From Candidatus Bipolaricaulota bacterium (GTDB lineage: Bacteria > Bipolaricaulota > Bipolaricaulia > Bipolaricaulales > Bipolaricaulaceae), in assembly GCA_025060415.1 (NCBI GenBank), contig JANXBT010000001.1, positions 254,313 to 318,312 of the forward strand: 64,000 nt of DNA, written 5' to 3'. Within the stretch, counting starts at the first letter, position 1, and every line of letters begins with the position of its first letter. The notes beneath the pieces are model-generated. The model had not been told where the DNA came from. It made no database searches and worked only from the letters and a program-made list of their open reading frames with translations. Below, one piece after another: positions 2,810 through 5,787 of the stretch. The position numbers were made by a program, and so were the translations under genes.

Positions 2810-2839
2810 ATCCTACCGAGAAAACGCGACTCCCGTCAA
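2810..2839 (-). promoter_or_regulatory. promoter of the tRNA-Asn/tRNA-Ile unit
   Basis: On the minus strand TTGACG (2834-2839) and TAGGAT (2810-2815) are 18 nt apart. The expected start is within a few nt of the mature 5' end of tRNA-Asn. The -35 box overlaps the stop codon of the substrate-binding protein gene. Confidence 0.55.
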
Positions 2840-5256
2840 CCGCCCGGCCCCACCACCACGAGGTCCAGGCTATCCCAGGCGCACAGGGCCACGGAGCGGA
2901 ACGCTGCCACCACCTCCAGCCGCAGCGCGCCCGTGGGCAGGCCCGCCGTCTCCGCGGGGGTCAAGGTGAGCTGGAAGCCGCGGGGCCCCGGCGGCACCTG
3001 GCCCGCGCGCAACAGCTCCCCTTGGGGCCCGAAGAGGAGGTACTTCACAAAAAGGACGTCCTCCGGCGGCGCGGGCTCCTCCCCGTAGCCCACCTCCACG
3101 AGGAAGGCGGCGGCGGAACCGGGGGCGAGGCGCGCCGGGCCGCTCACCCGGGCCCAGGGGATGCGGGGCTGGGCGTACCCGGCCCAACGCCCGGGGTCCG
3201 GGGGGAGCTCCTTCCCCTGCCGCAGGACAAGGATCTTCTCCACGGGCTTCACCAGGTCCACGAAGTAGGGGCCGTTGCCCACCCAGAAGTGCCCCTTGGC
3301 CGCGGCCCAGCGGGCCAGGGCGGCGTAGCGCGCCCGCACCTCCTGCGGGGGTACAAAGCGGCCCAGCAGGCCAGGGTAGGGGAGGAAGGCCTCCTCCGCG
3401 CAGCGGACGAGGGTCTCCTGGAGCACCGCCAGGCTGGGGCCGGAAAGGAGGCTGGCCCACTCCGTCTTCCGGGCCTGGGCCTTGGCGTTGGACATGCTCA
3501 GCTTTCCTTGGGCCTCCGCTCGGATCAGGAGGGCCAGCACGTGCCAGGGGCCCGGCCCGTATTCGTGCGCGGGGTGGAAGAGCTTGGCCGCTTCCGCCGC
3601 GATCCATTCCGCATCCAACGCGAGGAAATCCGTGTAGACCTCCACGACCAAGGGGTCCCAGCTCCGCACCAGGAGCCCCCGGAAGTGCTGGCGGAGGGCC
3701 TCCGCCCCGGGCACCGCGCTCGCGTCGTAAAGGGGGCTGCTGGGGTGCGCCCGATCCCAAAGGAGGACGAACCGCAGGAGGAAGTCGCCGGGGCTCAGCC
3801 GGCTCCCGTCGTGCCAGGTCTTCTCCCACAGGTCCGGCCGGTAGCGGAGGGTGACCCGGGCCTGGGCGGCGAGGCCCTGGGGGAAGAGCTCGCCGACGGT
3901 CCAGAACCGTTCCCTTTCGGGGTCCCAGGCGAGCCAGGCCTCCGGGGGCACGGGGATCTCCGGCGCGGTGCGCAGGGCCAACCAGGCGGAGGTGGCCTGG
4001 ACCGGTCGGCCCTCCCGCACCACGACCTCCGCCCACTCCACGTCCACGGGGATGTAGAGGCCGTTGTAGGGGTCGGGGAGGAAGGCGGGGTCCACCGTGG
4101 CCCGGATCACGGTCTGGTCGTAGGCGGTGAACGAGCCGGCCACGGGGTTCAGCGGCGCCGCAAGCAGCGTGGGAAGGGCCAGGCGCACCGTGTCCTTTCC
4201 GGAGAGGGAGCGGAGGGTACGGGCCCAGACCCCGGTGCTGAGCCCGGCGGCCAGGTCCACGGCCAGCTCCAGGTCTCGGCTGCGGGGGTAGCAGGCCAGG
4301 CGCACGGCCAGCCAGATTTGGGAGGAGTCGCGCATGGCCTCCGCCAAGGCCTCCACCATGAGGGCCGTGCGCTCCTCCAGGGTGGCGTAGGCCCGCTGGG
4401 CCAGCTTCTGGGCCAGCTCTGCCAAGCGCGGGGAGGGCCGCAGGTCCCGCCAGGGCGCGTGGGGGAAAACCGGCGTGTAGTTTAGGGCGAACGTCCCCGC
4501 CTCGTCCCGCTCGATCGCCCCCACCACAAGGCCGTTGGTGTACACGTGCCAAAGCCCCTCCTCCGGGTGGGCGGAGAGGAGGCGCATGGCCTCGGCGTAG
4601 CCCGCGTAGGTGCGGGTCACGCGGAAGCCGGCCTCCTCCAGCACGCGGGCCACGTAATCGCCCACGGGACGGCGGGCATCGGTGCGGATGAGCACCCGCA
4701 CCTCCACCGGGTTCCCCTGGAAGTGCCACTGGCCCTCCCGGAGCTCGCAGCCCAGCTCCTGCAGGGCGCGGGCCAGGGCCCCCTTGGCCCGCGGGGGATC
4801 CCAGGCGTAGCGGAGCTCCAGGGGCCGCGCGTGCTCCGCAAGCCGCGCGTAGTCCAGGAACACGGGGCGGAGGGGCAGGTACTGGGGGAGGCCCGCGCCG
4901 GCCATGACCTCTTGAACGAGGTACTCCCGATGGATGAGCCAGTTGAGGGCCTCCCGGACGGCGGGGAGGGCGAAGGGGTTGAGCCTTCCGTCGCGGAGGA
5001 GGGGGCCGGCGGGGTTCAGGCTCAAGAACCACACGGCGGTGTACGCAGGGGAGCAGGCGAGTTCTGCGCGGACTTTGCGGAGGAGCTCGGGGTCGGTGAC
5101 GCCGGCGCCGTAGAGGTCCAGGGCGCCGGTGCGGATCATGTCCACCGCTTTGGCGGCCGAGGGCTCCTCCACGATCACAAGCGTTTCCACGCCGCACGCG
5201 GCGGCCCCAAACGCCCAGAGGCCAAGCCCCAGGAGGAAGGCCCGCACGCCTTTCAT
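2836..5256 (-). CDS. family 5 extracellular solute-binding protein, apparently circularly permuted
   Basis: This 806-residue exported protein begins with a signal peptide (MKGVRAFLLGLGLWAFGAAAC; the Cys is only a weak lipobox). Its segments match peptide/nickel-type (SBP_bac_5) binding proteins, but in an unusual order. The segment near residues 40-50 (IRTGALDLYG) and the VREALNWLIHREYLV segment near residue 97 normally sit in the middle of the family. WHDGSRLSPGDF, normally N-terminal, is near residue 482, and GNGPYFV, normally next, is near residue 657. A beta-rich tail follows. The length also exceeds the usual 500-600. The ATG is preceded by GGAGGGTAAGGGG, which overlaps the end of the UPF0047 gene, implying coupling. 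No permease or ATPase gene adjoins it. The role in solute capture is inferred; the ligand is unknown. Confidence 0.75.
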   Translation of the reverse strand: MKGVRAFLLGLGLWAFGAAACGVETLVIVEEPSAAKAVDMIRTGALDLYGAGVTDPELLRKVRAELACSPAYTAVWFLSLNPAGPLLRDGRLNPFALPAVREALNWLIHREYLVQEVMAGAGLPQYLPLRPVFLDYARLAEHARPLELRYAWDPPRAKGALARALQELGCELREGQWHFQGNPVEVRVLIRTDARRPVGDYVARVLEEAGFRVTRTYAGYAEAMRLLSAHPEEGLWHVYTNGLVVGAIERDEAGTFALNYTPVFPHAPWRDLRPSPRLAELAQKLAQRAYATLEERTALMVEALAEAMRDSSQIWLAVRLACYPRSRDLELAVDLAAGLSTGVWARTLRSLSGKDTVRLALPTLLAAPLNPVAGSFTAYDQTVIRATVDPAFLPDPYNGLYIPVDVEWAEVVVREGRPVQATSAWLALRTAPEIPVPPEAWLAWDPERERFWTVGELFPQGLAAQARVTLRYRPDLWEKTWHDGSRLSPGDFLLRFVLLWDRAHPSSPLYDASAVPGAEALRQHFRGLLVRSWDPLVVEVYTDFLALDAEWIAAEAAKLFHPAHEYGPGPWHVLALLIRAEAQGKLSMSNAKAQARKTEWASLLSGPSLAVLQETLVRCAEEAFLPYPGLLGRFVPPQEVRARYAALARWAAAKGHFWVGNGPYFVDLVKPVEKILVLRQGKELPPDPGRWAGYAQPRIPWARVSGPARLAPGSAAAFLVEVGYGEEPAPPEDVLFVKYLLFGPQGELLRAGQVPPGPRGFQLTLTPAETAGLPTGALRLEVVAAFRSVALCAWDSLDLVVVGPGG

Positions 5257-5260
5257 CCCC

Positions 5261-5632
5261 TTACCCTCCTACGTACACGTAGACCACACGGTCCTTGGGG
5301 CCGTCGAACTCGTAGAAGTAGATGCGCTGGTCCTCCCCAAGGACCATCTGCCCGTCCACCACCACGCCCACTTCGGTGGGGGCCACGAGCGCGGCCTTGG
5401 TGTACTCCGGAGCGATGCGGTCGGGGTTCACCGCCTCCAGCATGGCGTCGAGCTTGGGGGCCTCGGCCTCGGCCAGGGTGCGGTGGATGCTGACGGCGGC
5501 CGCGTCGTGCGGCACGTAGATGATGACGAAGCCCTCGCGCACGCCGGATTCCCGGATGACCCGTTGCACCTCCGCGGTGATGTCGACGGCCTCCTCGCGT
5601 TTGGTCGTGCGCACGGGGATCTTGGCCACCAT
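5261..5632 (-). CDS. UPF0047/YjbQ family protein, shortened and divergent
   Basis: This is a 123-residue protein with an ideal AAAGGAGG site before the ATG at 5632. It matches the UPF0047 (YjbQ) fold: FVIIYVPHDAAAVSIH near residues 35-50 and YFYEFDGPKDRVVYVYV at the C-terminus. YjbQ proteins have been linked to a secondary thiamine-phosphate synthase activity. The usual signature is altered: GTWQ reads GEDQ, and the conserved segment with the second histidine (typically a DAHIKASL-like run) is reduced to EYTKAALV. The family normally has about 130-140 residues. It may have lost or changed catalysis. It precedes and is probably co-transcribed with the solute-binding protein gene. Confidence 0.75.
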   Translation of the reverse strand: MVAKIPVRTTKREEAVDITAEVQRVIRESGVREGFVIIYVPHDAAAVSIHRTLAEAEAPKLDAMLEAVNPDRIAPEYTKAALVAPTEVGVVVDGQMVLGEDQRIYFYEFDGPKDRVVYVYVGG

Positions 5633-5683
5633 GGCTTCCTCCTTTCCGCGGGATCTTAGCGGGGGCGGCGAAGCCAAACCAGG

Positions 5684-5711
5684 TTGCACAGGATCCCGTA
5701 AGGGGTAATAT
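5684..5711 (+). promoter_or_regulatory. promoter upstream of the NYN gene
   Basis: TTGCAC (5684-5689) and TAATAT (5706-5711) are 16 nt apart in a locally AT-rich gap between divergent genes. It would give a leader of about 70 nt for the NYN gene. Confidence 0.45.
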
Positions 5712-5787
5712 TGAAGTTTTGGAAGTAGCTCAGCCGCCAAGCAGGGCCTCTCTTGGAAAACCTGCCTGAGCTTCTTCGGTGAAAGCC

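Follow-up and report, generated by a model that had tools for sequence, protein, structure and literature searches.

Solute-binding proteins (SBPs) of the SBP_bac_5 family (PF00496, Cluster C), such as DppA, OppA and AppA, have a fixed canonical order of sequence landmarks, namely HDG - GTGPY - sGeiD - VRqAl. It is common for orphan SBPs to share a permease, and the usual origin of a circular permutant is a tandem duplication whose outer halves are then trimmed. A natural circular permutant of an ABC-transporter binding protein has been described, namely the 'Type Ic/Cluster Bc' glucose-binding protein TpMglB-2 (Tp0684), which despite the permutation retains the bilobed fold, glucose binding and closure, and whose authors proposed a link between the permutation and membrane tethering (PMC4990184). 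This Cluster B protein is the only natural permutation of an ABC binding protein that was found in the open literature searched, and no report of circular permutation in SBP_bac_5 was found there (most subscription papers were outside the scope of the search).

Here we consider a gene located in a stretch of 64,000 nucleotides from a Candidatus Bipolaricaulota genome, which will be called the window. The gene product is best explained as a secreted SBP_bac_5 (Opp/Dpp, Cluster C) ABC solute-binding protein with a circularly permuted chain, being an orphan paralog that most likely shares the transporter encoded at another locus of the genome, C22. We estimate the probability of this reading to be ca 0.93. 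The swapped order, the conservation, the predicted fold, the operon context of the relatives and the recurrence were all established by computation.

Results and Discussion

Gene and landmark order

The gene and its parts are the following (positions in the window; conservation among 26 homologues).

2836–5256, minus strand: permuted SBP_bac_5 gene, 806 aa; intact ORF with a Pfam SBP_bac_5 match and full-length colinear relatives at 32–80% identity
5194–5256, minus strand: signal peptide, residues 1–21 (end approximate); hydrophobic stretch at 6–29, low-confidence model helix at 1–20, cleavage type inferred
4522–5193, minus strand: canonical second half, first part, residues 22–245; Pfam profile 157–320 at residues 32–214, 7fi3 chain 365–570
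4948–4959, minus strand: VREA motif (canonical VRqAl), residues 100–103; R101, E102 and A103 invariant
4189–4521, minus strand: canonical C-terminal region, residues 246–356; the canonical profile reaches position 513–522 in several homologues
3187–4188, minus strand: canonical first half with HDG and GNGPY, residues 357–690; profile match to 7fi3 chain 67–309 (E 2.9e-15), AlphaFold2 and Foldseek of the piece alone
3805–3813, minus strand: HDG motif, residues 482–484; H482 and G484 invariant, D483 >90%
3265–3279, minus strand: GNGPY motif (canonical GTGPY), residues 660–664; N661 and G662 >90% conserved
2839–3186, minus strand: C-terminal beta-rich tail, residues 691–806; seven strands in the AlphaFold2 model, weak Big_13/FlgD_ig matches in some members

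The signal peptide has a possible lipobox, AAAC, but the cysteine is not conserved. Residues 22–245 contain a strand with an sGeiD-like segment and the NPF..VREA motif, and run through to ..YTNG. The canonical N-terminus follows directly after the canonical C-terminal region, with residue 357 onward reading TVRLALPTLLAAPLNPVAGSFTAYDQ (TVRLALPT..LNPVAGS). The junction of the old C- and N-termini is thus found at about 356/357. The new termini come from a break just after the GTGPY hairpin, before the sGeiD strand.

The initial annotation had proposed that IRTGALDLYG and VREALNW stand at the N-terminus, with HDG at about residue 482 and GNGPY late in the chain, and the landmarks were located as claimed (IRTGALDLYG at 41–50, VREALNW at 100–106, GNGPYF at 660–665). 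The order in the protein is sGeiD - VRqAl - HDG - GTGPY instead of the canonical one, and the protein is therefore filed as a permuted subclass and not as an ordinary SBP_bac_5 member.

The Pfam SBP_bac_5 match has 51.5 bits (curated cut-off 32.4) and covers only positions 157–320 of the 368 in the profile. In an ordinary member this section is found in the middle of the protein, whereas here it lies at residues 32–214, that is, at the extreme N-terminus. All 26 family members match SBP_bac_5 at E <= 1. The family does not belong to Cluster B (MglB-type), its Pfam matches being to SBP_bac_5 only.

A single-sequence search of the PDB sequences with the window protein yields 7fi3_A in two inverted pieces, with residues 478–674 aligned to chain 104–296 and residues 92–247 to chain 402–570. 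With the profile of the 26-sequence family, positions 427–702 match chain 67–330 (i-E 1e-14) and positions 53–239 match chain 365–570 (i-E 1e-29). Two inverted matches of this strength mean that the order of landmarks in the initial annotation is right and not due to chance. Rotating the family alignment at the 356/357 joint raises its hhalign score against the canonical set from 180.5 to 210.7 and the number of aligned columns from 280 to 314, because the GNGPY element now continues into the second half. The landmark columns align after the rotation in a set of 63 sequences.

Both halves of SBP_bac_5 are thus present, the C-half by Pfam and 7fi3 and the N-half by the 7fi3 profile and the fold. 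The N-half is diverged, giving short and weak pieces against the general canonical profile, at the expected places, and its strong similarity is to 7fi3 only. For the stretch 236–434 alone, no match was found in the PDB.

Predicted structure

The AlphaFold2 model of the full-length protein, obtained with the 26-sequence alignment as input, is a single compact model with a pLDDT of 91.4 and a pTM of 0.89. Foldseek, which is tied to chain order, aligns ca 300–400 columns of it. The alignments span roughly one half of any given Cluster C target, with a TMt of 0.37–0.49; these targets are 7fi3 (E 4e-18), 1xoc, 5f1q, 6ofq and others. The 50 matches listed are peptide-, nickel- and SBP_bac_5-type binding proteins. 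The canonical first half (residues 357–690) was also modelled alone by AlphaFold2 (pLDDT 92.5), and its single significant Foldseek match is 7fi3, with a TMq of 0.71 over 340 columns. Since this half gives no significant DppA-type match on its own, the DppA-type matches of the full model come from the other half. The bilobed fold is predicted to be intact.

We have also considered that the chain could consist of two partial SBP domains in tandem, each copy lacking the opposite half, instead of one permuted domain. The same order of halves would be expected in that case, and the duplication route to a permutant passes through such a state. The two scenarios differ only in the packing of the halves, and the compact single model, with its pTM of 0.89, supports that they pack together. 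Moreover, each half is present once, and in better-scoring families the two together cover approximately the whole canonical profile with almost no overlap. Tandem partial domains are thus very improbable. The circular permutation that the initial annotation had proposed is supported by the swapped 7fi3 matches, the rotated hhalign comparison, the landmark columns in the 63 sequences and the AlphaFold2/Foldseek results; neither alignment nor predicted structure gave the normal order, and the N-terminal segments did not turn out to belong to a different fold.

With the fold of the permuted protein predicted to be intact, a ligand (a peptide or similar) would be expected to be captured in the cleft between the two lobes and to be handed over to an Opp-type permease.

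Genomic context and transporter

The SBP gene starts 4 bases downstream of another gene on the same strand, and the two are likely co-transcribed.

5261–5740, minus strand: UPF0047 gene (Pfam UPF0047); beside the SBP gene also in L007–L010

No permease gene is found beside the SBP gene, the nearby genes being HAD, NYN, ZIP and panB. The gene order around it is conserved in related genomes (the UPF0047 adjacency in L007–L010), and the orphan paralog is kept in the genus.

Most of the relatives examined head an Opp-type operon with the order SBP-permease-permease-ATPase-ATPase. At L011, L012, L021, L029, L034, L036 and C22, permease-like ORFs and then, contig permitting, ATPase ORFs follow on the same strand. 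C22 is located in the genome of the window itself, and its SBP is 43% identical to the window protein and permuted likewise. In the C22 operon and at L029, Pfam assigns BPD_transp_1 to both permeases and ABC_tran and oligo_HPY to the ATPases; at C22 this covers one ATPase, and a second ATPase was also seen.

It is conceivable, but unlikely, that the orphan copy in the window now serves in sensing or scavenging rather than in transport. It has no adjacent permease, it sits immediately downstream of UPF0047 and, at 43% identity, it is diverged from the paralog in the operon. However, the positions that are invariant in the homologues from transport operons are retained, and orphan proteins served by a shared permease are, as noted above, nothing unusual. 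We therefore favor a role in transport, in which the window copy, having no permease of its own, most likely shares C22, the genome's only transporter of this type. The window gene would then be a genus-level duplicate whose product works with C22.

The OppC-like permease of these operons is 440–490 aa long and has ca 190 extra residues between the first two membrane helices, a feature that is conserved in bacteria and archaea. Examples, all from permuted-SBP operons, are the following.

L004:2749–4092, minus strand: OppC-like permease with insert
L021:9579–10937: OppC-like permease with insert
L029:9751–11154: OppC-like permease with insert
L034:10040–11515: OppC-like permease with insert
L036:9644–10987: OppC-like permease with insert

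The insert is extracytoplasmic and has no Pfam match, nor was a credible match found in the PDB, the best one (E 0.05, to repeat proteins) being treated as chance. The genome of the window has the insert in a single permease. One or two insert-bearing permeases each were found in seven of eight other genomes tested, including a Caldilineaceae genome in which SBP_bac_5 has 71 matches. At L013, permeases of conventional length follow the SBP gene.

Distribution of the window family

A genome scan gave 35 public loci with relatives. The bacterial ones are from Bipolaricaulota, Caldilineaceae, Halobacteroidaceae/Clostridiales MAGs, one Lentisphaeria MAG and one Thermoanaerobaculia MAG, and the archaeal ones are named Ignisphaera, Sulfolobales, Desulfurococcaceae and Thermoproteota. 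According to the half-profiles, all full-length members have the order second half - first half (- tail). In the phylum to which the window belongs, 55 out of 100 genomes have a match at E <= 1e-20. In the phylum of a Desulfurococcaceae MAG (archaea), 115 of 200 sampled genomes have such a match, mostly a single colinear one over both halves. Homologues with the same order are thus present in related genomes, which the initial annotation had suggested as a check, and the order is also kept in distant bacteria and archaea.

Since the genomes are mostly MAGs, an artefact of assembly or annotation, in which contigs are misjoined or two genes are fused in error, could be suspected. This is refuted by the presence of the same order in dozens of independent assemblies from two domains at 32–80% identity; in addition, the neighbours are conserved in the genus. 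We consider the probability of an artefact to be negligible.

The initial annotation had also described an extra beta-rich tail. Such a tail is indeed there, with seven strands in the model, and residues 691–806 probably form an Ig-like beta-sandwich, but the tail is optional, being missing from the members of ca 720 aa (L068–L070). One homologue has approximately four or five PKD-like repeats in place of the Ig-like tail, while in the archaeal members the tail is followed by a stalk and a C-terminal membrane helix.

L071, 1306–4998, plus strand: permuted homologue with PKD-like repeats

No canonical-order close relatives of the family were found: with the 7fi3 N-half as query against 200 archaeal genomes, the 20 loci that were read are all permuted, and a search of plasmids gave nothing. 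The family plausibly originated by a tandem duplication in which the outer halves were later lost, although none of the loci read shows a duplicated intermediate.

Recurrence of the permutation

A search of archaeal genomes with SBP_bac_5 gave further proteins whose best stretch, at the N-terminus, is limited to the second half of the profile. Two representatives of a second family (L101, L107–L114) are the following.

L101:148–2391, minus strand: second-family permuted SBP, 748 aa
L107:3074–5296, plus strand: second-family permuted SBP

L101 is permuted also relative to the classical bacterial DppA 5f1q, its residues 474–568, 699–735 and 134–294 aligning to 28–124, 199–235 and 287–445, respectively. 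L107 lies on the same contig as L035 (G105:C1), where an operon with a permuted SBP of the window type is directly followed by one of the second family.

The break sites were mapped on a canonical profile of 535 positions, on which the control L128 gives one colinear match (8–524). For L101, L107, L110 and L113, the profile order is about 243–463, 459–519 and 46–237, which places the break near 240, where that of the window family also lies. For L115–L118, which are close relatives of the L101 family, it is about 459–531 and then 56–447, with the break near 450. A reading of L115–L118 as unpermuted sisters of that family was rejected, as their sequences and the canonical profile show that what stands at the N-terminus corresponds to the canonical C-terminal region. 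In a third family (L119, L120, L122 and L125) the order is about 304–524 and then 46–282, with the break near 300, just before VRqAl. These proteins have a membrane helix and an Ig-like domain, then start at VRqAl and end at the strand that normally precedes it. There are thus three distinct cut sites in all among the permuted SBP_bac_5 proteins.

In a quick tree of the 63 sequences (SH-aLRT support), the window family groups with 7fi3 (100) and the L101/L115 group forms another clade (100), while the third group is placed beside L127/L128 (97), among archaeal SBPs of canonical order. A tree in which all permuted proteins form a single clade is rejected, its log-likelihood being lower by 173 (p-AU 2.3e-6). 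Taken together, this means that the permutation has at least three origins, and the two break sites within the second group imply a further permutation event there. The canonical-order 7fi3_A is nested among permuted proteins in the same tree, but the alternative in which these form a clade without it is not rejected (p 0.38). 7fi3 may represent the unpermuted ancestral type; a reversion to the canonical order is possible as well, but is not supported by the test.

The permuted arrangement is old, widespread and recurrent. We find it likely that permutation in SBP_bac_5 arose at least three times, at three break sites, that one of these events is old in bacteria and archaea, and that it is linked to a transporter of the Opp type, the OppC-like permease of which has a unique extracytoplasmic domain of ca 190 aa that may have co-evolved with the rearranged SBP. 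Repeated and lasting permutation has thus affected an SBP superfamily that is among the largest. The topologies of one fold that it has produced form a natural series, which makes it possible to ask whether chain order, membrane anchoring and permease docking limit one another. It is important to note that profile and structure searches that follow sequence order detect half of a permuted protein, which means that these proteins are scored as partial matches in many thermophile genomes.

Comparison with known systems

The nearest solved homologue of both halves is the oligopeptide permease A (OppA) of Thermococcus kodakarensis (7fi3), which is of the same size class and whose entry title reports a bound endogenous pentapeptide. 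It has the canonical order, with the N-half at 67–330 and the C-half at 365–570, whereas the window family has the reverse order and the Ig-like tail. DppA, OppA and AppA share with the window protein a homologous second half and the HDG, GTGPY and VRqAl landmarks, and with its relatives the Opp-type operon, but no whole-chain alignment in sequence order is obtained between them and the window protein.

The second and third families are, like the window family, circular permutants of SBP_bac_5, but they are separate families. They have an N-terminal membrane anchor and lack the C-terminal Ig tail. The break site of the L101 type is approximately the same as in the window family, while those of L115–L118 and of the third family are elsewhere. 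Finally, TpMglB-2 is a permutant of the Cluster B sugar-binding fold, with a different break site and an origin unrelated to that of the window family.
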